Under the pieces are notes generated by a model. It had not been told where the DNA came from, ran no database searches, and worked only from the letters and a program-made list of their open reading frames with translations. Both the position numbers and the translations under genes were made by a program. Shown here piece after piece: positions 13,599 to 60,680 of a stretch of DNA of 64,000 nt; the stretch's first letter is position 1, and every line of letters starts with the position of its first letter. Source of the DNA: Branchiostoma floridae. Its lineage: Eukaryota > Chordata > Leptocardii > Amphioxiformes > Branchiostomatidae. The stretch spans positions 21,469,026 to 21,533,025 of the forward strand of contig NC_049990.1 of assembly GCF_000003815.2 (NCBI RefSeq). The letters are read 5' to 3'.

Positions 13599-16500
13599 TC
13601 ATTTCCCCTCCGCACCATTGATTAGCCCGTCCTGTTGACTCTTCAAAAACTCACTGTACAGTTTTTCCTGAGCTTCGTACAGCTTCCGCAACTTCTTCTG
13701 CTGGCCCTTGCTGAGCTCTTTTCCCTCCTTGTCATGTGTTGGGAACCCCTGAAAAATGATGAGAAGATAGACAATCAAACCTGTCTATGGGTGAAAGAAA
13801 AGGCTGTTTTGGAAAGACTGCCTTTCTATACAAAGTCCCTTTCTCTTTGATATAGAGGCTGCGACTGTTCAGCAACTAAACATTTTGCAGATTTCTCAAG
13901 GAATTTCTAAAAAATTTCTTATGTGTGTTTTACTGTCATTTAAATTGTACATCTTGTATCAAGGTTACAAAAATCAAATTTTGGATCCTGTACCCTTGCT
14001 CACCAATCACCGTCGTCAAGAAGAAAGGAGACCTTAAAAGTTTTCTAATGAAATGTGGCCGTACCGTGTCGTCAAAGCTGGAGTACTTGTCTGTGTCCTT
14101 CAGGAACATCTCTGATGGAGGGATTCTTCTCTTGGCCTCTTTGGCTGCCTGTTAGTGAAAATGCATTAAAGATTTCATTAACAAGACTTAGAACTGCTTG
14201 TTTATAAAACTTGCTACTGTCATATTTGAATGGAAATTATATTTTTTCATGTTGACATACTAAATTGTAAGCCTATAGAGAATGCAAAGTATATATACTA
14301 ATGATGCAAGTACTGATTCTTTGGTCCTTGGACTTGATTAATGCACTGAAGTAGCAACTTCTAGTTAAATACAGTTACTGTAGAAGCCAGTTACATGTAA
14401 TTGCACAACGGATTACTAGTAATGCACACTTCTGTTTACTGCACGGAATTCCAAAATCCCAAACCAGTGCAGTCCAACTGGTTAACTTCACATTATTGCA
14501 CAAGCCTGATAATTGCACAAAATACGCTGGCAAATAGGCTGTGCAGTTAAACTGCTTCTACTGTACCCCCAAATTAACCAAAGGTACCTGAAGTTCTTGT
14601 TGTTTCCGTTGTTTTTCTTCTTTCTGGCGTCGCTTTTCTTCTTCAATCTTGGGATAAAAAAGAATTGTATCAAACATGTAAAATGACTCATTTACTTGGA
14701 GGAAAAAATTTGGTTTCATCAAGAGGAAATTCTATTAGTCTTTTGAGTCGGAGCCCTAAAAAACATTTTCAAAGTACTCTTCAAGACAAATAACAACGGA
14801 ATTCTAAGAAGCCTTACTTTAATCTTCTCCTCCCTCTCCTTGAGAAGAGTCTCCTTGTCCACTAATTTGACGACCGGAGGCAGCCCCTCGTGGTCCTCCA
14901 GTCTCACCCCCAGCTGCGGCAGGACATCGTCACGCAGCCCGTCACACAGCTGCAGGATCTCTTTAGCTGCAGGAAACAATCCCTGCCTTTTTACTTCATG
15001 AAGTATTCTACACAATACAAGATCATGGTCATGATTACACTATTTCTTTCCTGTGAATGTAACAACAATGATATGGGTTGAACATGCTTTTCTTGTTATA
15101 ATAGGCAGGGTCACATTTCTAAAAGAAAAGTGTGACCATTTAAAAGACAACAAAATGTATAAAATAATTGGCACATACTACTAGTAAGAGTACATTTATA
15201 CACTTCTTGATATACACTTTTATTTATCATTCCAATGCATACATACAGCCCAACCAGTCCCCTAGCATAATGGATGACATGCAAGAGTAGTATAAATACA
15301 TGTAGTACTCACAACTCATTATGTTTGTACAACAAGAAACAAACAAGCTCTTTTGATACAAGGAGAAAAAGTTATTTAGACAAAATAGCCCATTTGTTGT
15401 ATAAAAAAGAAATAGAAAAAGAGTTCCAATTCAACATACCTTTCTCTTGGCGAGCTACTTGCCGCACCTTGTCTCTGAACTCAGCCATTGTGCTGAGGTA
15501 CGGCATCACTGTTTCTTCCAACTGGAAAAAATTGACATCTGGCTCAAAGCACTGCTACAATCTATGTCCAGATCCTTTGAATTGCCCATCAATGATTTCA
15601 TCATCATTCGCTGTCTTCTTTATCTACAGTCTTTGATTTACCTATGGAAATCTCAATCAAATGAGCTTAATGTGGTACATCTTATTTAGTTATAAAGTTA
15701 CTCACATTTGCTGCCTGACTTGTACCACCCACAGGGAAACCTATAAGCTCTTCTCCTTCAATAGCACCAAAGATCTGCAAAGAGAAAACATTGATATTGA
15801 CCGATATTGTCTTTGGCTGACTTTTATTTTTGAACTTCTGTATTTACCTACTGTTGTGAAAAAAGAGGTTTTAGCAGTGTGGAAAAATAAAACAACTGTA
15901 AAAGTTTCGAAATTTACAGTATCTTTTTGTACCCAAACTTGGAATGAATTATGAAACACCTGATTCTTTTTTTATCATCAACCAAATTCAATGTAAAACC
16001 CACTGGACAAAGCTGCTAGGAACTGTGGTGAGAAGATTAGCCAACTTATGCCTACCCATGTCAGGGACTCCAGCAGCAGTACAAATACTGGATACTACTG
16101 AATACTACTACACAACTGTTACCTTCAGCAGCAGTACAAATACTGGATACTACTGAATACTACTACACAACTGTTACCTTCAGCAGCAGTACAAATACTG
16201 GATACTACTGAATACTACTACACAACTGTTACCTTCAGCAGCAGTACAAATACTGGATACTACTGAATACTACTACACAACTGTTACCTTCAGCAGCAGT
16301 ACAAATACTGGATACTACTGAATACTACTACACAACTGTTACCTTCAGCATTCTGGTGAGGTAGGCTGCTATGTCCCTGAGCAGGGCGTGGTCAGGCTGT
16401 TGCCGGGCGTCTCTCTTCTCCTTCAGGTAGACGTTACTGTCGGACACCAGCTCACGCATCTGGTCCATGGTCGCCCTCGTGTCAATGTTGTCTGTCCGAA

Positions 16501-19500
16501 AAGACAACAGCCTGATTTAAAGGTTGCATTTACAGATGGACAAACCAGATCAAAAATGATGTACTAGTTATGAAGGATAAAAAGATCAGCAAAAGCATGA
16601 TCAGCAAGATCTGTGATCTTCATCTATTCAAAACCTCAGTCTGTTTTAACAATTAAGATTTACATGACATTGTACTTACCACATAGTGCCTGGTGAACTC
16701 CTTCTTTCCTCTGTTGGAAACTGAGTAAAAGAGATGATTACATCAAGGGACTTCACAATTCAAATACTTCTTTTTTACTCGTGTCTTGTAACCTTTTTTC
16801 TACCCTAAAATGAAATAGTTAAAAACTGACCAATGTAAAAAGTCCTTTCATCATTGTCACTTTTACCTGGCACAATCCAAAGAGTAAAGAATAGTCACTT
16901 CTTAACAGCAGTCTTGCTTTCAACATATAAACCACATACAGTGTGGTACATTACACCACTATTAAAGGCACCAGTTCAGGACTGGATGTCTTACCTTTCT
17001 GCAAGCTGAAGCTCTGCCTTGTCCCACTTCAGAAAAGGGGGTGCATCTGTTCTCAAGACATCCTTTACAGTCAGGAAAAACTCCTGTATGGCATGAAATA
17101 TAATAAAATTGAGGCTTTAAAAGACAAGGTCCTAGCAATTTATGTGGTACCTAAACAACAAACAGTATACATAAAGAGCCCATGTACATGTATTGGATAT
17201 TACCTACATGTATAGAATGGTAGTGTCTTTTTGCTACATAGCTTTAAACAAATCCTAGAGTTAAGGCAAAAGATAGGAATGACAGGCTATTTGATGAAAT
17301 ATAATAAGCCAATACTGTGATGCTATTGGGTCACTATACAGGCTAAACAATACAGATACTGTAAATGCAGAAATGTTTGTGGTAGTCTCAAACGTAAAAC
17401 CACCACAAAGTTTAACATTTTTCCATTATATTATGTGACTACAGTTTATGGTGCTACTGTGAACTTAAAACCACAGCGAACACTCAATTTCCCCACTGCG
17501 GTGAAAATAAATCCCCGCGAACTTAAATACATTTACAGTAGCGACTTACATTGATCATCTTCTCATACTTGACGGCTGTGCCCATGGTGTCCGAGCTGTA
17601 GCCCAGCGTGCCAAAGACCGGTTATACAGATAAACAACAGAGATACAGATGCACACAGACTAGACTTACATTGATCATCTTCTCATACTTGACGGCTGTG
17701 CCCATGGCGTCAGAGCTGTAGTCCAGCGTGCCTAAGAGCAGTTATACAGATAAACAGAGATACAGATACACAGAGACTAGACTTACATTGATCATCTTCT
17801 CATACTTGACAGCTGTGCCCATGGCGTCAGAGCTGTAGTCCAGCGTGCCTAAGAGCAGTTATACACTCAGATAAACACAGATACAGATACACAGAGACTA
17901 GACTTACATTGATCATCTTCTCATACTTGACAGCTGTGCCCATGGTGTCCAAGCTGTAGTCCAGCGTGCCTAAGAGCAGTTATACACTCAGATAAACACA
18001 GATACAGATACACAGAGACTAGACTTACATTGATCATCTTCTCATACTTGACGGCAGTGCCCATGGTGTCAGAGCTGTAGTCCAGAGTGTCCTTCCATGA
18101 GTGCAGCAGGAAGCCCAGCCGGAGCTGGCGGGAGCTGTACTTGGACAGGGCCTCCTGGATTGTGATGAAGTTCTTCAGGGACTTGGACATCTTACAGCCC
18201 TCGATGGTCAGGTGGCCGGAGTGGAGAAAGTAGCGCACCCAGTGGTCATTGTCGTAGTAAGCCTGCAAATGTTCAAACAGTGTTAAAACATTTTTACATG
18301 TGTACACTCAGTCTACATTGTGTATCTAATGCTAATTCCCCTTTATCCGTGGGGTACTCTATATCAGTTGTTTTGAAGAACATGGTTTTAAGGGGTATCA
18401 AGTTGCTACACAGTGTTTTCAAACTGTAAAATTGTCTGTCAACTTGATATCCCTAGATACCCAGTTTTTAGATACAACAGATAAAGGTTACCCCACGGAT
18501 TTAAAAAAAGGTGAACAAGCGTTATAAACATTTGAATGCCCTTTCTACTTTTTGCTTTAATCCCAATTGGCTAACAAGAATACATAATTGTGAAGTACAT
18601 TTTAATTTGTACACCTTAACTTACCACCTGCAATGCCTCAATGATCCAATGTTAACCCAAACCAGATACATTGCACATTTGTATTATACTAAATTTGCAT
18701 TATGGTCTTGTAAAGACTAGGCTAGCTGACTGCTGCCTAACCATGTCAGGGATCCCAGCAGCAGTATAATCATCAAATACCGTATACTTCTACCACTACC
18801 ACTCTAAAATAAAATATTCAAAAGAGAGAAAATACTAGGTAAGGTAGTGACGACATTGAATATAGCAGAAATTACAACCAACCTCGGCCTGTGCGATTTC
18901 GTTGTCATGATGAGGGAACTTGAGGTCGTACCCTCCTGTGTGGATGTCTAGTGAACCTCCCAGTATGGAGCTGGCCATCACAGAACACTCAATGTGCCAC
19001 CCTGGTCGACCCTATGGACAACAGTGGGAACAGTTTTTACATACAGCAATAAATAATAATGCTAGTAGAGAAAGCAGATGTTTCTGATCATTGTTTACAC
19101 TAATGTTTTAACTTATTGCATTGTTTCTCTGTTGCTTTTCATTTTTGGGCACTAACATTGTTATTATTTTATCTATTCACTTACTCTTAATTTATTCAGT
19201 CACTAGGTCTCACTCATTCACTTGCTCACTCATTCACCACTCACTCACTCACTGACTCTCACTAACTCTAGTCACTTACTTTAGACTCTATTCTCTCTCA
19301 CTCTACTCACTCACTCACTCACTCTACTCTCATTCTCTCTGCTCCCTCACTCTAGACTCTACTCACTCACTCGCTCGCTCTGTCACCCCCTCCTCCCCCT
19401 ACTCACCATGCCCCAGGGAGAGTCCCATGAAGGCTCCCCAGGTTTGGAGGCTTTCCACAGAGCGAAGTCAGTGGTCGACCTCTTCTCACTCAGACGGTCC

Positions 19501-48680: not shown

Positions 48681-51600
48681 TTAGGCCTGTGTCTCTTCAT
48701 CCAGATCTTCAGTGCTGTCGCTCTCCTCAGTGCTGGAGGGTGCGGACCCCCTCCTGGTGCCTCTGTTTGGTTCCTTCCGCTGTTGAACACTGGCGGATCT
48801 CCAAATAGAGGGGCCCTGGAAAAGACGCAAAGTTGTCAATGACACACAAAGAATGTTTAAAAGTTCCTATAAAAAAGTAAATACTATATGCTTTGACTTT
48901 GGCTAGCCATCCATCCATGACAGATAGTGGCATTCTTTTTACTCTAAATATCACAAAGTTTTTTGCACATTATGACTGCTGAGGTATTGTTTTGGGCACT
49001 GACTAATTGAGAATCTTGATCCATTCACAGAAGGAAAATCCCTACAATCACCAAGGGTACCATGGGTTCACAAAGAACAAATACTTGGGGATCTACAATA
49101 CAAGAGTTTCTGACAAGCAATTCGCTTTTGTATCTAGTTTCCTGGATGTCTAACCTTCATTGACTCAGCAATCCATCCAAACTATGAATTTAGTATGATG
49201 TATTCATACACAAATATCAAGACCAACAACAATGTTTCAAACAGACTGAAAAATTTTCCCTAACATAAATCTTGATACAGTGTAGGTCCAGAGATACGAA
49301 CTACAAGTACACAAACACAAAGTATGTAATAAGAGGACCTCACCAGCCAGTCACTCTTGACAAAGGTCATGATACAGTGTAAATCCTGAGGGCTGATCTA
49401 CCAGACCATTGCACCTTACTGTAACAATTATAGTACAAGTACACCTTCACAACAAGACAAACACAAAGTATCTAGCTATATTAAGAGGACCTCACCTGCC
49501 AGTCACTCTTGACGAAGGCCATGATACAGTGCAGGTTGCCGCCAGTCTTGCGGGTTTTCCTGGTCTGCAGCCCGAGGTGCAGCCGGCGGATGTCCAGGTA
49601 CGTGGGGTTCTGACAGTTCAGGTCTGTGGAGATGTCACTCCATCTACAGGGTGGGAGGGGGGGGGTTGTCACACTGGTCAATGACTACTTGAACTGATCG
49701 TGAGAAATCTTAGGATCAAACTGTGATAAAGGTCATTTTCTCCCAAGTTAATTGCCCAGGGAGAAAAATAAGCATGCATCATCAAATGAAAGAGTTTTTT
49801 ACTTGCTTTAACCTAATCTAGAATCTTGTTCTAACCTTACTCTAACACACCTGACCACCCCCTCAACATGTTCATTAGATGTATGACCATGAGTGAAGCC
49901 TGTACAGTGTGTAGTCACCTGATACAGTGTAGACCTGGGTGTTTCCTACTGGGGTCACCAATCAGCAGCCATGTCTCAACTTCATCCTGCTGGAGGTCAG
50001 CTCTGGAAACACAGTTAACATTCAGTAAGCCGAGGGCCATATATAACAAAGCCCACTTGACATTTTTTCAGAAGCATCTTGAGATACTTTTGAGATGCTT
50101 TAAAAGTGTCTGAAAAAAATCTTGAAATCTTCTGAAAGAATCTTGAGACTTAATAAAAAGCTCTCAAGATTCTCATGAAAAATGTTAAGATTGACTTAAA
50201 ACATCTCAAGGTTTAACCACTAAATCTCATGATTATTGGAATAAATCTTTTAATAAGACTTTTTTTATTTTCAACGAGACGTGAAGACCTTTTTTCACGA
50301 CTTCAGGGAAATTCTGGCTGGTTCACATTGTACTGCAGCACAGGTGTCCCTCCTTACAGTTCAGATGTGGTCACAAATGTAAAGTATTTACACATGTACA
50401 GACCACTTTATATCCAGAGCACCATACATACCTGTAGGCATGAGTTGCTTTGAGAGGCACGTCTTCAAATCCAATAGGACAGAAATAGTGGTTCTGGCAG
50501 TGGTAAATAAACGTCATGTTGTCGTCGCGCAGACCGTTCTTCACGTTTGCCAGCGCCGTTTCGTCCGTGGTGCCCATGGTGCGCCCCTTCCCGTGAGGTT
50601 TGTAGAGGTAGTAAGCCCTCCCGCGCACCCCGTAGTGGTTGTTCAGGAGAGTAAACCACCTCATCAGTGTGGAGTTACCTGTGAAGGGTCCGAACCTGAT
50701 CTCACCGAACGGAGGTTTGAAGCCCAGAACATTCAGAGCCTCCTCCTGGGTGATGGGGCTGTGGCTGAGAGGAAAACAGCCTGATTAAATCTCGCTTATA
50801 GCAGCCTGTACATCATCTTACTATATTATCAGCTGGCCTCCAAGGGGCCAGTTACAGCCCCAGACAGCAGAGTCTGTCACTCTGTCTTGCACAGACAAAG
50901 ACGAAAATATAGGAGAGGAAGTTATTTCTTACACACTTCCATCACTAGGGGTGTGGGGGGTGGGGGGGGTTACCAGGTACAAAAAAATGTTTTTCTTACT
51001 GGACCAGTGCAGAAAAAAATGGACCTAAAAAAATCAGTGGACCGGATGTTGGACTGATTCAAAAAATAACAGATTATTTCGGCAGGCGTTCATTTGTATT
51101 GGGGCTTACAGATTCAAGAAAAGAACAAGAGCAAAGTAGACAAGAGGAGAGTTGATAGTCATTCTTATAATTGATAAGACTGATAGCATGTGAAAATGTG
51201 AATAAACTCATAGGTTTCTTAGTAAGCTTGATATGTTCCATACTTGATTAGTTTACATCATGCTCCAATTGTGCTAGCAGCTATTATAGAAAATATAAAC
51301 TAACTGAATGGTACATAGACTTCTTCCCAACTGTGACTTCAAGTTGGCATAATTTGGTCTGTTGTTTGACAAAGAAGGATGGATGAAATGACACTAAACA
51401 GTCCATCATATTGGTCACACTAACTTGATCACATCTTCTTCCCTGTAAACATGAACAGATGGTAAAGTAGCAGGTGATTGAATCATGGCTTGTAACAAAG
51501 AAAAAAGCTAACCTGCCACCCCCCAGTGTGCTGAATAGGAAGTTCCAGCAGGAGACGAGTGAAGAGATGCCACATGACTTCTGGTACTGGGGTCGGCTCA

Positions 51601-54600
51601 TGCAGTACCTACAGGAGGGGGGAGCAGGGTTAGAAACAACACCACCAGATGGACAAACAGGTAAGTCAATATATTCTCTATTTGTACATATACCTAAGGA
51701 GATGTACACATGAAAAGACTCTCCATGGGTAAACAAGTTGCTGGTACTAGTGGTAGATATTTCTAATTCAATCTACATGTTGAAATCCCTTAAAATTATA
51801 GCAAATATTAATCATTATAAATATATAGCTCTTATAAGCACAAGGCCTGGTGTTGGTTATGAAGTGAAAAAATTCATTTAGCACAGAATGAATCAATTTT
51901 AATCATTACAGCTTTTCATTCATAGTTACTACTACATCATGTACCACTTCATATGTTTCAACAGCTCGGACATGTTGTAACAGACTACATTCGTCTTTCA
52001 TAAGGGACATAGAATAGGAGTCCCGTGTTGCTTCAAGCACGTAAAAAAGCCTCAGATTACTGAGATTGGGTGCCTACTGGCTACAATGATACACCAAGGT
52101 GAGTTAACTAATTACAGTACATCATATCATAAATTGTGTCCAACTGTGCAGCAGCTCCCCCTACCATCTCCTGAGGTCCAGCACCTTCCTGAGAGCCATC
52201 TGCTCAGGAGTGACGTCTGTGGTGACGGCGGAATATTCCTTCTTCACATCCTTCTTCTCTTCCTGCTGTTTGTTGTCTGGCTCGGAGGTGTTCTGGACAT
52301 AACCTGAGACAACAAAAAGTAAACTTTAAGATGTTCCAAACGTCTTGATTTATACAACATACAAAAGAATCTAAATCCTTTTTATTTCCCCAAAAGCCTG
52401 TTATTCGTAGCTTTCTTCGGTGGCGGCGCAGATTTCGCCGTGCGGCCAATACTTCCTGATATTAGTGTGCAATAGCGGTAACGCGGTTTCGTCGCCTGAT
52501 TACCCAGATGGTACGTTCTATGTGCATTGTGGGTGTTTTAGCGCCTTCGGAGCTCGCGGAAAACGTATCCTCACGATTTCCCTTCTTTTTCCTCAGCATA
52601 CAAAGAAAATATTGACCTTTCTTGCCATATTAGTCATTATCCCAAGAAAACTATTTTTTTCCATTTTGAGGCCTGTAAAAAATGCCCCAAAATTGCAATT
52701 TTTTTGTAAAAATTGTATGTTATTCATCGTTTTTACCAAAAATAACATTTCTACAGAAAATGTGACCTGAGTCTGTCAGTCAGTGACAAGGCACCTTTTT
52801 CTATCCGAAACATTGAATTTTCTGAAAATCAATGTTTTGAGAAGCGCATAGTACTTTTCTGAGAGACAGTCAAATTGGCCCCAATTCATAAAAAAACTCC
52901 AAACCGAGACCTCCTTCCACCGCCTTTCACAAGGATGCAATATCTAGCAAGAAAGGCAAGGAATCCAACCCGTGACCTCCCTGTCTCGTGTCCGCTAGCC
53001 TAGCTACTCCACGATTTGACACCACAATACCTTTAATGAGGAAGGATGAGAAGCTGAAAGTTGACATCTCTTAGTCTTACCTCGTTTGACCTTTCTGTTG
53101 ACCTTGTTCTTGACCCAGCTGCTCATGTCCACCTCCCATGATTCCGAGCGGTGCTGCGGTGACCTCTGACCTGCCTGGCTCAGGTCAGCAGGGCAGGACT
53201 GGGAGGTCGGTACCTCGGTGACGGCTCCGCCAATCAAGTCTCGCAGCACGGCCTCAACCATGTCCTCTATCGGGGGTGCAGGTATCGCGGCTGTTTGTTG
53301 GAGGGGAAAGAAAATATGTTTCATATGATATGATTGGTTAACATTTTTCTCAAAAAATGTGACTTTCCAGAGAAGTTTTCTAAGAATTTTAGCTGAATTT
53401 TCCTGAGGTTTTGTGCCAGATTCTGGCGTGCCGGACCTCTATATTATAAGAATGAAATGGTACTGCAGGGAACTGCAGAACAATGGCTGCATTCGCCTTG
53501 CAAAGCAAAAGTTGCATCTAAATCCATGCCCTTCCAATATGTGTTGTTGTTAGTACTTACCGTTGTTGTTGGATGTGTAGCGTTAGTTCACCTTTATCCG
53601 CGGGGTAACCTATATCCATTGTGTTGCTAAACAGGGTGTCCATGGATATTAAGTCGATGGACGGTAGTTTCAAATTGTACTTTTTAAGAAATATTGCTGT
53701 TTGAATCCATCATCTGTCGACTTGATTTCCCTAAATATGTTGTTCTTAAAAAGAACAGATAAAGGTTACCCTACGGATAAAGGTGAACTAGCGTTAATTG
53801 TTAGAATGTTGGATGTGTTATTGTTAGAACTTACCATTATTGCTGGATGTGTTGTTGTCAGAACTAAGGTTGTTGTTGGATGTGTTGTTAGAACTTACCA
53901 TTGTTGTTGGATGTGTTGTTGTTAGAACTTACCATTATTGCTGGATGTGTTGTTGTCAGAACTAAGGTTGTTGTTGGATGTGTTGTTAGAACTTACCATT
54001 GTTGTTGGATGTGTTGTTGTTAGAACCATTGTTGTTGGATGTGTTGTTGTTAGAACTCACCATTGTTGTTAGATGTGTTGTTGTTAGAACTCACCATTAT
54101 TGTTGGATGTGTTGTTAGAACTCACCATTGTTGTTAGATGTGTTGTTGTTGGGACTCTCACACTCTGGATCACACCCACTATCCCTCTCCTGGTCCTGTT
54201 CTCTTGTCTCTACCACAGGCTCGCGCCCGTACTTCACACATGAAAACATGTCTTCATCCCGAAACTCGATCTCCACATCTGCATCTGAGACCGGGGAACT
54301 CAAATTCTCCGCAAATACACCTCTGTTTGTTTCCTCAACTTCGCTCCTACTGCATTCTGGGATAAAGTCTGTTTCTTCTTCATCTTCTGGGAAAGAGGAT
54401 CTCTTGGAGAGAGCCAGCTCTCCATTGGTCAGCTCAGAGTAGTTACACGCATCGTGATTGGTCGGTGAAGCAGCATCATGATGTTGTCCCTGTCTGAAGA
54501 TGTTCTCTTTATCGTCGGTGTTCCCACTGTTCTCCTCTTCAGTGAAGTCGGATTCTGGTTCGGATTCCGAGGACAGTGGCGTTCCCAGGAGGTTCCCCAT
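48681..54600 (-). CDS. BIVM: Basic immunoglobulin-like variable motif-containing protein, 8 exons
   Basis: Exons in coding order: 54126-54600, 53081-53290, 52165-52303, 51513-51608, 50432-50764, 49919-50002, 49496-49643, 48681-48815. Phases agree and give 539 residues (human 503). Exons 1-2 are acidic, Ser/Asn-rich and poorly conserved. From [11 protein letters not shown] (about 266-277) to the end of exon 7 (495) the match to vertebrate BIVM is high: [60 protein letters not shown] and [13 protein letters not shown]. The last exon is a short Ser/Arg/Glu tail. The function of BIVM is poorly known. I note a papain/C39-like pattern: Cys287 in QKSCGISS, His399 in NHYFCPIGF and Asp434 in IGDPS. 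The start at 54600 ([13 protein letters not shown]) also carries a Gly2 that could be myristoylated. Confidence 0.9.
49290..49395 (-). pseudogene. Decayed copy of the BIVM exon 7 end and its flank
   Basis: The phrases AAGAGGACCTCACC, CCAGTCACTCTTGAC and CATGATACAGTG occur here and again at the true exon 7 end (49486-49532), in the same order and with the same ACAAACACAAAGTA flank. The copy has CACCAGCCAG where the true donor region has CACCTGCCAG. It covers about 35-40 coding bases plus intron and lies in intron 7. It cannot encode a useful exon. Confidence 0.8.
50055..50235. repeat. Motif-rich repeat in BIVM intron 5
   Basis: About a dozen AATCTTGAGA / TCTCAAGATT-like words alternate in orientation, together with CTGAAAGAATC, giving potential for long hairpins. 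Probably a MITE with subterminal motifs; ends not resolved. Confidence 0.4.
53550..54130 (-). repeat. Asn-codon repeat multiplying the BIVM exon 1 splice donor
   Basis: On the gene strand, units AACACATCYAACAACAATG|GTGAGTTCTAACAAC follow one another from inside exon 1 deep into intron 1. The first donor (exon end 54126) is the real one. Similar GGTGAGT or GGTAAGT donors follow at about 54093, 54061, 53997, 53931, 53897, 53832 and 53561. The coding part gives the Asn-rich end of exon 1. Use of any later donor would read through TTCTAA, a stop. Family A MITE copy 3 splits the array. Confidence 0.85.
53586..53788. mobile_element. MITE, family A copy 3, with 8-bp flanking repeat
   Basis: Ends GTTCACCTTTATCCGCGGGG and the complement CCCTACGGATAAAGGTGAAC. 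Both flanks read TAGCGTTA (53578-53585, 53789-53796), a perfect 8-bp direct repeat as made by hAT transposons. The other two copies have only partly matching flanks, which could mean that these bases belong to the element. It is inserted in the BIVM exon 1 donor array. Confidence 0.75.
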
Positions 54601-56669: not shown

Positions 56670-58100
56670 TGAAGCTACGTGAAATATCAGCAAATTTGTC
56701 ATTCTATGTTGAGCACATTTACATTATATCGTGGGGAAAAATTGCCAACTTCAACTATACAGAGGTTATTTTTTTATAGCAATTATAAGCTACGATTAGT
56801 TAATCCCCACAAAAGGCACTCTTTCGCTGTTAGTGTACAGCCGCACTACTCAGAACCCAGGACCAGACTTAGCGCGCGGCTGCAAAAGTTTACCTGCTAA
56901 TTTCTTCAGTTACAAACAAGCTTTCACCAGTCTAACTTTTGAGATCAGTTCCGCTGGTAAAAAGGGAATTTCTCACAGCTAAAAACACGCGTCCATGCAG
57001 CCGTTCATTTCTTGGCTCGGATCTCGGAATAATACATCAATGAGACCTTAGGCGTACGAGTAAACTTGATGAAGGAGAGGTAAAATGCCTTGTTTAAAGG
57101 GGCAGCCAGATATAACCTGTGCTGCATGGTCACAGAAGGTGTCGACTCTGAGGCCGCGTATGATTTGGGTGGTGGTTGTGTATAAATGCGCCCCATTACG
57201 CAACTGCCCTTCTAGTGTGAGCTGGCTGCAGTTATTTGAACCCGCAGAGCGGCATTTCAAAGTGGACGCGAGAAGGCCGATAGGATTTTTAAAAAAAATT
57301 GTAGCTTGTATCCTGGTCTCGAACATATTCCTAAAGTGCACCCTAGTATATTTTTTCCGCGCCGAAGCCAGTCCACTTTGTGGCCCTTAAATATAGAAAT
57401 CCTCATTGGTTGAAAATGTGTTCTGCTCCCTTCAAAGCAATTTACGCTGGAAGAAACAACTGGGGTAGACTATTGCACTTCCACCTAACACGACAGTTAT
57501 TTGCCTTTCAGAATTATAGCTCCCGAGTCTCTTCTCTCCTCTACGCGTATCTTCAGGTACACTATGTTCGTGTGGGTCTTCGGAGCTTTTAGGCAACGCC
57601 AATTTCCTTTCTCTGCGCACCAGATATGGTACCCAAACCAATCTGCAAGACCGGACCAAAACTTTTGTACTACCGGGTCAAAGCTCAAATCTGACCGGAA
57701 TCGTTAATATAGGGCAACTTTCCGTATTTCCGGAAAGGCGCAGAGGACCCACTTTCAGCCTACTCAAAATGATTAGGTACCCTTGGCAAAAGTGCCTATA
57801 GAATGTTTTTGTTGAGATATGTTTGGATTTTAGAGGTGAATATCATAGGTAAGGAATATAGCCTGTATATTGTGTAGAAAAAAAACCACCAGATTTTTAG
57901 TGATATTTGTGGTTTCAGTAGGCCTTAGAAGTTAGGTGTTTTGGTGTTATTCACAGGCAGTGAACTGAAAAGGGGTGAAGAGGCCACATCCTATGTTTTG
58001 ATGGCGTATGATAAAATTCCGCCGTAAATTTTTTTTCTTTTTTTTTCCGTCAAATTACTCTTTAGAGGCCAGACAACCATGTAACCTTGCACAATTTGTT
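56670..58100. other. Intergenic DNA, nothing recognised
   Basis: Mixed composition with moderate CpG near 57000-57720. Short frames on both strands overlap one another and lack recognisable content. Confidence 0.45.
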
Positions 58101-59260
58101 TGAAATTTCTGAAGTCCGATCGTAAGGGGTCGCTTTCCTGCGGTTACCGAATGGTTCGCTGAGCGGTTAGCGGTTACCCCCATGTGAGCCTTCATTCGTA
58201 TGTAGAAAAGTGAAAAATAATTTTGGGTACTCAAATAACTTTCTACCTTCTCCCCACGTGTTTTACTATTACATTCAAGTGTTGAAAGTAACGCACACTT
58301 TTTTTTTAAATTTCTGAAGTCCGACCGTAAGGGGTCGCTTTTTTGCGGTTACCGAAGGGTTCGCTTAGCGGTTAGCGGCTACCCCTATGTGAGCCTTCAT
58401 TCGTATGTAGAAAAGTTACAAATTAATTTGGGGTACTCAAAAAACTTTCTACCTTCTCCCCACGTGTTTAAATATGATATTCAAGCGTTGAAAGTAACGC
58501 ACACTTTGTTTGAAATTTCTGAAGTCCGATCGTAAGGGGTCGCTTTTTTTGCGGTTACCGAAGGGTTCCCTTAGCGGTTAGCGGCTACTCCCATGTGAGC
58601 CTTCATTCGTATGTAGAAAAGTTACAAATTAATTTGGGGTACTCAAAAAACTTTTTACCTTCTCCCCACGTGTTTTACTATGATATTCAAGTGTTGAAAG
58701 TAACGCACACTTTGTTTGAAATTTCTGAAGTCCGATCGTAAGGGGTCGCTTTTTTGCGGTTACCGAAGGGTTCGCTAAGCGGTTAGCGGTTACCCCCATG
58801 TGAGCATTCATTCGTATGTAGAAAAGTTAAAAAGCAATTTTGGGTACTCAAATAACTTTTTACCTTCTCCCCACGTGTTTTACTATGATATTCAAGTGTT
58901 GAAAGTAACGCACACTTTGTTTGAAATTTCTGAAGTCCGATCGTAAGGGGTCGCTTTTTTGCGGTTACCGAAGGGTTCGCTAAGCGGTTAGCGGTTACCC
59001 CCATGTGAGCATTCATTCGTATGTAGAAAAGTTAAAAAGCAATTTTGGGTACTCAAATAACTTTTTACCTTCTCCCCAACGTGTTTAAATATGATATTCA
59101 AGTGTTGAAAGTAACGCACACTTTGTTTGAAATTTCTGAAGTCCGATAAGGGGTCGCTTTTTTTGCGGTTACCGAAGGGTTCGCTTAGCGGTCAGCGGCT
59201 ACCCCTATGTGACCCTTCATTCTTTGTAGAAAACTTAAAATTAATTTGGAGTACTCAAAT
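58100..59260. repeat. 205-206-bp satellite, about 5.5 units
   Basis: The anchor GAAGTCCGA recurs at 58111, 58316, 58521, 58727, 58932 and 59138. Each unit holds GTAAGGGGTCGCTTTTTTGC, GGTTACCGAAGGGTTCGC, a GCGGTTAGCGGTTACCCC arm that pairs with the previous one, and CTTCTCCCCACGTGTTT with a CACGTG E-box. Units differ by a few percent. The last unit breaks off at 59260, where the 365-bp repeat begins. A minus-strand frame opens in several units but shifts with the unit length and is not a gene. Confidence 0.92.
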
Positions 59261-60201
59261 AACCACGGAAGGTATAATCGCAACATATGGCCAGAAAGAA
59301 ACATCTATCCCCCAAACTATGCTGCCTATCCCCAGCGCCTTGGCCAGGTGCATGGCTGGGGACACATGGCTGTCGCACATGGCCTCGCCGCTCTTAAGGG
59401 CTCTTAAAAGAACCTCTCCCCATTGCAATGCATTGAGCGGCGTTCTTTTGCTCCTATTTTTTATATACCAAGCAAGTGCCGCCGGCTTTTAGCACCAAGA
59501 CATGCCCGTCGCCCGTCCGCATCGACCTGGTGCGAAAGATCCGGTGCCCGGAGCCCTCTGAGCGCCTGGGGCGGTGATACCGGGTGTTCACCTGGGCAGG
59601 GCTATGACGTCATCGTGGCCTTGAGAACCACGGAAGGTATAATCGCAACATATGGCCAGAAAGAAACATCTATCCCCCAAACTATGCTGCCTATCCCCAG
59701 CGCCTTGGCCAGGTGCATGGCTGGGGACACATGGCTGTCGCACATGGCCTCGCCGCTCTTAAGGGCTCTTAAAAGAACCTCTCCCCATTGCAATGCATTG
59801 AGCGGCGTTCTTTTGCTCCTATTTTTTATATACCAAGCAAGTGCCGCCGGCTTTTAGCACCAAGACATGCCCGTCGCCCGTCCGCATCGACCTGGTGCGA
59901 AAGATCCGGTGCCCGGAGCCCTCTGAGCGCCTGGGGCGGTGATACCGGGTGTTCACCTGGGCAGGGCTATGACGTCATCGTGGCCTTGAGAACCACGGAA
60001 GGTATAATCGCAACATATGGCCAGAAAGAAACATCTATCCCCCAAACTATGCTGCCTATCCCCAGCGCCTTGGCCAGGTGCATGGCTGGGGACACATGGC
60101 TGTCGCACATGGCCTCGCCGCTCTTAAGGGCTCTTAAAAGAACCTCTCCCCATTGCAATGCATTGAGCGGCGTTCTTTTGCTCCTATTTTTTATATACCA
60201 A
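59261..60201. repeat. 365-bp tandem repeat, 2.6 units, identical by eye
   Basis: Units start AACCACGGAAGGTATAATCG at 59261, 59626 and 59991; the third stops after 211 bp at TTTTTTATATACCAA. I see no difference between copies, so the duplication is very recent, homogenised, or an assembly artefact. Each full unit has a CRE palindrome TGACGTCA and is GC-rich in its second half. Frames cross the unit borders on both strands, but 365 is not a multiple of three and no protein family appears. Confidence 0.92.
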
Positions 60202-60680
60202 CACTGCATGAAAACTGCTCTTTAAGCACTCTTAAAGTGTGCTTAAGGGTACCGTATTGGCATTCTTTAAGTTACATTACGTCATGTTTACGCATTCGGA
60301 AATATTATATTTAAGCTATGATTACGTGCGTCCGTAAAGGACACGTTGTGGCACACATTTAAGCAACTTTTAAGTATCGTAAACTATGCTTAAATTCTTA
60401 CGTTTACACAGCGTTTAAGCACCGTAAATGCTGCTTAAATTGAGTGTCATACGTCGACTTAAATAGTCCGTAAAGCGCACGTAGTGGCACACATTTAAGC
60501 AACTTTTAAGTACTTTAAACTAAGCTTAAATCCAAATGTTTAAACATTGTTTAAGCACCGTAAATGTATCTTAAATCGTATATTTTTTTGCCTTACGTCT
60601 GGTTTAAGCAGGTTTTAAGTATTTTAATATAGTCTTAAATATTTTATTTAAGCTGCTTTTAAGAATCGTAATGCTCCTTA
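60202..60680. repeat. CTTAA/TTAAG-rich repeat with internal duplication
   Basis: More than 20 TTTAAG or CTTAAA words lie in both orientations at 12-25-bp steps. A unit of about 137 bp starting CCGTAAAG (60331 and 60469) is duplicated with divergence and includes GTGGCACACATTTAAGCAAC. The layout resembles transposon subterminal repeats, but no terminal inverted repeat was found. Confidence 0.7.

Follow-up and report, generated by a model that had tools for sequence, protein, structure and literature searches.

Four additional copies of the last 62 nt of the CARS1 exon that encodes the KMSKS loop, each still followed by its donor, lie in tandem in the intron behind that exon, and we hold with high confidence that this array is a lancelet minisatellite of the "mirage" type, on the donor side and close to neutral, whose copies are normally removed as intron. 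In the available text of PMC3087553, a mirage is an amphioxus tandem repeat that spans an exon/intron boundary, as in Adh3 and globin genes, and the available text of PMC3902484 reports further mirages in TnC (troponin C) and PGBD5. The CARS1 array adds a gene to this known amphioxus class. A topic search on mirages, minisatellites, amphioxus introns and intron gain, run without gene names and reaching few subscription papers, returned no title or opening of an abstract that placed a mirage in CARS1, BIVM or valyl-tRNA synthetase.

The array was found in a window of 64,000 nt, the whole stretch of DNA analyzed here. The translation of the KMSKS exon matches the cysteinyl-tRNA synthetase family PF01406 (Pfam, E = 1e-19), and its matches in the PDB are Cys-tRNA ligases; the exon joined after it is 17083..16995 on the minus strand. 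In all, 16 donors and 17 acceptors were placed in CARS1 on the basis of an open frame, a splice signal and, mostly, a match to vertebrate CARS1. Three small exons (21700-21617, 21491-21441 and 16720-16680) were added later, and the 718-nt and 503-nt CARS1 introns of the earlier model are composites that span such exons. Placed introns of CARS1 and of a second gene in the window, which resembles BIVM, range from about 125 to 1,853 nt. A PDB search with the read-through peptide gave no match, and neither did a tRNA scan and Rfam. The intron before the KMSKS exon holds an inverted repeat (window positions 18345-18500; 73 nt, 74% complementary, 10 nt between the arms), perhaps the remnant of a small mobile element. 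The features of the KMSKS exon and its array are as follows.

18262..18029, minus strand: CARS1 exon for the KMSKS loop, 234 nt, phase 0/0, 78 residues (Pfam PF01406, PDB, splice sites)
18029-18090, minus strand: last 62 nt of the KMSKS exon, the exon part of the copied unit
17543..18089, minus strand: whole tandem array, 121-nt unit made of 62 exon nt and 55-59 intron nt (TRF, repeat search)
17908..17969, minus strand: mini-exon copy c1 (62 nt), preceded by AG and followed by donor GTAAGTC, departs from the exon tail at 6 positions
17787..17848, minus strand: mini-exon copy c2 (62 nt), preceded by AG, departs from the exon tail at 5 positions
17670..17731, minus strand: mini-exon copy c3 (62 nt), departs from the exon tail at 4 positions, strongest acceptor among the copies (4.7 bits)
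17550..17611, minus strand: mini-exon copy c4, 62 nt, TTTG in front and hence no AG, 5 differences

TRF reports a single array at 17543-18089 with a unit of 121 nt, 4.6 copies and 93% matches, and the repeat search resolves it into five copies whose spacings, in gene order, are 121, 121, 117 and 120 nt. On the coding strand there are five instances of the donor ATCAAT|GTAAGTC: one closes the true exon at 18029, and the others stand at 17908, 17787, 17670 and 17550; a reading made from the sequence alone, which had placed four 62-nt copies with this donor at the last four positions, proved exact to the base. It was also right that three of the copies have an acceptor: CTGCTCTTAG stands directly before c1, c2 and c3, whereas CGGTCTTTG, which lacks an AG, stands before c4. 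The AG of c1 to c3 sits at the seam between the intron end of one unit and the exon fragment of the next. When a copy of the 24-mer across each window boundary was sought up to 700 nt away, with 18 or more identical positions required, the 24-mer at 18029 recurred at 24/24, far beyond chance; boundaries that lack a copy (26 donors and 29 acceptors) had best matches of 12 to 15 of 24. The stretch that holds the array has one match in its own genome (513,431,437 bases in 431 contigs).

The exon parts of the copies differ from one another at 1 to 4 of 62 positions and from the true exon, at the edge of the array, at 4 to 6 of 62, which makes the copies closer to each other than to the edge unit, albeit with small numbers and with ranges that touch at 4. 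Between c1 and c3, the exon part differs at 4/62 positions and the intron part at 5/55. Two full-codon differences are common to all copies, both of them synonymous, and the changes present in only some copies comprise three replacements (S>L, T>A and D>G) and two synonymous changes; on these small numbers, the copies show no sign of constraint. The unit of the true exon and c1 differ at 6/62 positions in the exon part but at 0/59 in the intron part (P = 0.028, Fisher's exact test), a mosaic of the first two units that fits unequal exchange or conversion within the array. All eight variable exon columns fall within the first 38 of the 62 nt, and in the 24 nt beside the donor the five units are identical (P = 0.014, for a cut that was chosen after the data had been seen). 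This invariance may reflect recency or conversion, and some constraint would also fit. The near absence of frame-damaging changes, which the sequence-only reading had suggested may come from the same two causes, is weak evidence, since the copies differ from the exon by just 4 to 6 of 62 nt.

Acceptors were scored with a matrix built from the 29 window acceptors with leave-one-out, which is small and rough. On this scale, c1 and c2 each reach 2.4 bits and exceed 2 of the 29 real acceptors, c3 reaches 4.7 bits, exceeds 10 of the 29 and so lies inside the real range, and the c4 site scores -4.5. Four stretches of CARS1 intron, one of them with the array, contain 421 AGs, of which 63 outscore c1 and c2 and 49 outscore c3 (earlier matrix of 21 sites). 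Splicing from the KMSKS exon to c1 would need an intron of 59 nt, whereas the shortest intron placed in CARS1 or the BIVM-like gene has about 125 nt; the upstream introns for c2 and c3 would have 180 and 297 nt, and the downstream intron for c3 would have 586 nt. Given that the acceptors of c1 and c2 are weak, that of c3 is middling and c4 has no AG, c3 is the most plausible copy to leak, if any does.

As the sequence-only reading had predicted from the phase 0 junction and the 62-nt length, inclusion of copies leads to a TGA, and it does so in all 15 tested combinations, at codon 19 past the KMSKS exon. If the array is retained and any one of the four downstream donors is used, the stop falls at codon 36, and replacement of the KMSKS exon by one to three copies gives a stop in 14 of 14 tested combinations. 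The inclusion models also break frame past exon 17083..16995 because a small exon was missing from the model, and the stops reported here precede that break.

These observations are consistent with the following history. The first event would have been a tandem duplication of the last ~62 nt of the exon together with ~59 nt of the intron behind it; growth to five units would have come from slippage, unequal exchange or conversion. The spliceosome would normally join the first donor, the only one in the array on a full exon with an acceptor of its own, to the exon at 17083, thereby discarding all copies as intron. Any inclusion that leaked through, most likely of c3, would yield an mRNA degraded by nonsense-mediated decay. 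An array in this position would be near neutral and would drift, which a c4 without an AG fits. On their sequence, the copies look tolerated rather than used.

Weak, leaky splicing, in which c3 and perhaps c2 enter a few transcripts without regulation or any regulatory role and those transcripts are degraded, has a real though minority chance of being correct: the donor of c3 is identical to the real one, its acceptor outscores a third or so of the real ones (10 of 29), and leakage of this kind is compatible with a near-neutral mirage. A regulated role is a different matter. Poison exons are a class coupled to nonsense-mediated decay, and the sequence-only reading had suggested that the mini-exons may form such a cluster and could lower functional CARS1; under regulation, they would be included in some condition. 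They are formally complete small exons, with a donor throughout and an AG in three, every one of the 15 inclusions ends in a stop, and the introns on either side of c3 (297 nt upstream, 586 nt downstream) are of ordinary length. Beyond this frame arithmetic nothing was found to support the proposal: the acceptors of c1 and c2 stand above just 2 of 29 real ones, dozens of the 421 intron AGs score higher than these (63) or than c3 (49), c4 has no AG, and some copies carry replacements, with no sign of constraint. Published mirages, moreover, are said in the available text of PMC3087553 and PMC3902484 not to disturb regular splicing; in the former, globin RT-PCR and Adh3 data suggest as much, and its authors allow for cryptic use. 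We therefore regard a regulated poison-exon cluster as highly unlikely. The other suggestion of that reading, of tandem copies that have no function but are still visible to the splicing machinery, agrees with these observations and corresponds to a published amphioxus phenomenon.

An assembly artifact, in which copies were misassembled from allelic or raw repeat reads, has a precedent, inasmuch as PMC3087553 states that the haplotype 1 mirage of BflGb6 appeared aberrantly assembled in the genome draft. Here, however, the units carry changes of their own, the greatest divergence is by and large that of the true exon, and boundary duplications of four different periods occur within the one window, all of which leave an artifact very improbable. 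The copies also keep most of the exon peptide, as would alternatives in a set of mutually exclusive full exons for separate CARS1 isoforms, but at 62 rather than 234 nt they are in the wrong phase and the 14 of 14 stops upon replacement rule this out by frame; its probability is close to nil. The near-neutral mirage is the best reading.

In the available text of PMC3087553, mirage units measure 10 to 72 bp in Adh3 and 150 to 160 bp at the 5' boundary in BflGb6, and the 3' boundary of exon 2 in BflGb9 is duplicated over 157 bp. Nine globin matches were found in the genome that holds the CARS1 array: the exon of one (L006) has a 157-nt donor-side duplication, and that of another (L010) has acceptor-side copies at 158, 158 and 154 nt. 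These two resemble the published mirages of BflGb9 and BflGb6, respectively, in side and period, and on the strength of this likeness the lancelet is very probably Branchiostoma floridae. The CARS1 unit of 117 to 121 nt lies inside the published range of 10 to 160 nt. Like the published arrays, it spans the boundary, carries splice signals and has an edge unit that is less homogenized; it departs from them in its gene, in its donor-side position with 62 exon nt, and in the AG that makes three of the copies formally complete mini-exons.

Potato RdRp is reportedly a case of intron gain by tandem duplication. The proposed route, in which AG/GT proto-splice sites are duplicated in tandem (attributed to Rogers in the available text of PMC3087553), is similar to the CARS1 array in that duplicated splice signals could yield new introns or exons, whereas the CARS1 copies lie inside an existing intron and no new intron splits the coding sequence. 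They share with poison exons the early stop on inclusion; unlike them, they are candidate exons by sequence alone, with weak to middling acceptors and no constraint seen. Dual-specific AG|GT splice sites are also known (available text of PMC10809524), and among the arrays of CARS1 it is a second one, with a 55-nt unit and AAG|GTAACA in its units, that resembles them; the 121-nt array differs, having acceptor AG|GC and mini-exons of 62 nt. Finally, complete or partial exons, some with splice sites, lie within introns of amphioxus VCBP3 (available text of PMC2632668), and the available text of PMC2206037 contains nothing on such intron-borne exons.

The other boundary duplications of the window are these.

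16071..16350, minus strand: second mirage in CARS1, 5.1 copies of a 55-nt unit with 100% matches (TRF), spanning donor AAG|GTAACA of exon 16491..16343
53807..54150, minus strand: donor-spanning array of the BIVM-like gene, 34-nt unit, 10.6 copies, 81% matches, donor AACAATG|GTGAGT
49327..49531, minus strand: two-copy donor mirage of the BIVM-like gene, 152-nt spacing, 92% identity over 53 nt, donor 49496

In the 55-nt array, AAG|GTAACA is present in every unit, and the four downstream sites score 3.9 as acceptors. A splice from unit to unit could restore the same exon end and donor, to judge from the letters, so that internal splicing would be traceless in the mRNA. The BIVM-like gene, so named from a match to vertebrate BIVM, has its 34-nt array where the first placed exon ends (54126), an end set by the open frame, without a homologue match. 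Its two-copy mirage contains a candidate 42-nt mini-exon (49344-49385, minus strand), a copy of the tail of the preceding exon that is preceded by CCCTCAG (6.8 bits) and followed by a donor. This candidate is in frame with the preceding exon, and its inclusion would add 14 residues without a stop.

By the 24-mer test, therefore, mirages mark 4 of the 30 window donors and none of the 29 acceptors: CARS1 18029 (121 nt) and 16343 (55 nt), and BIVM-like 54126 (34 nt) and 49496 (152 nt). The window was chosen because it contains a mirage. The two donors and one acceptor tested from the small CARS1 exons have no copy (best match, 13 to 14 of 24). Donors in TRF arrays (3 of 23) are not in excess over a rotation null (P = 0.27 for the whole window, P = 0.057 for its genic part). 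Since 8 to 14% of random gene-body positions in the window, with arrays left in place, are also copied, the 4 of 30 donors are not enriched (P = 0.20 to 0.62), and targeting of donors by duplication, beyond ordinary local repeats, does not emerge from these counts. At the same threshold of at least 18 of 24, local duplicates were found for 22 of 738 exon-internal and 559 of 3,920 intron-internal start points in CARS1 and the BIVM-like gene, and for 159 of 3,480 random points in the flanks of loci from elsewhere. The asymmetry between donors and acceptors in the window (Fisher P of 0.11) looked suggestive, but it did not recur in 58 loci elsewhere, where a looser scan gave copies at 1 of 28 donors and at 4 of 43 acceptors.

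A stricter census took in 55 of these 58 loci, omitting three with long open frames that were taken as intronless, and a score cut left 34 donors and 41 acceptors. Mirages were present at 1 of 7 donors and 1 of 7 acceptors in globins, a family chosen for its published mirages, and at 0 of 13 donors and 2 of 12 acceptors in the PF00133 synthetases. None was detected at the 14 donors and 22 acceptors of the myosins, where the census covers 30 of 142 matches, nor, with no score cut, at the 14 donors and 14 acceptors of two chaperonin genes (14 exons of 60 matches). The synthetase loci include acceptor copies in L022 (90 nt), L014 (159 to 166 nt, three copies) and L018 (114 nt), all at G000:C8, 19.715-19.735 Mb; that of L018 was found by the looser scan and by eye and was missed by the stricter rule. 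These loci lie within 20 kb and, from a reading of their peptides, are presumably parts of one valyl-tRNA-synthetase gene. In one of them, the three upstream copies keep an AG after a pyrimidine-rich stretch. Mirages thus affect roughly a few percent of boundaries, donors and acceptors alike, and appear to be what is tolerated out of a high general level of local duplication that is not aimed at splice sites.

A single mirage is ordinary for amphioxus, and the added value lies in the rate. Four boundary duplications in 64 kb and three in one apparent gene suggest that this is a good genome in which to watch the birth of exons and introns, and they raise the question of how the spliceosome chooses among identical donors a hundred bases apart. 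The in-frame BIVM-like copy and the AG|GT array make both donor choice and exon birth directly testable. A bolder view is that lancelet genomes continually trial new exons: boundary duplications would set mini-exons beside a few percent of exon edges, most of them silent poison exons as in CARS1, some spliced in as coding exons, as the 42-nt BIVM-like copy with its good acceptor and donor might be. We consider this view doubtful.

Two further repeats were seen in passing. In a chaperonin gene (L062, 2932-3023), two 35-nt copies stand 57 nt apart, each with a pyrimidine-rich stretch, an AG and CCACCCTT, and are perhaps another acceptor mirage. At positions 58089-60576 of the window, large tandem arrays lie side by side, with units of 205 nt (5.7 copies), 365 nt (2.6 copies, 100% matches) and 136 nt (1.8 copies).
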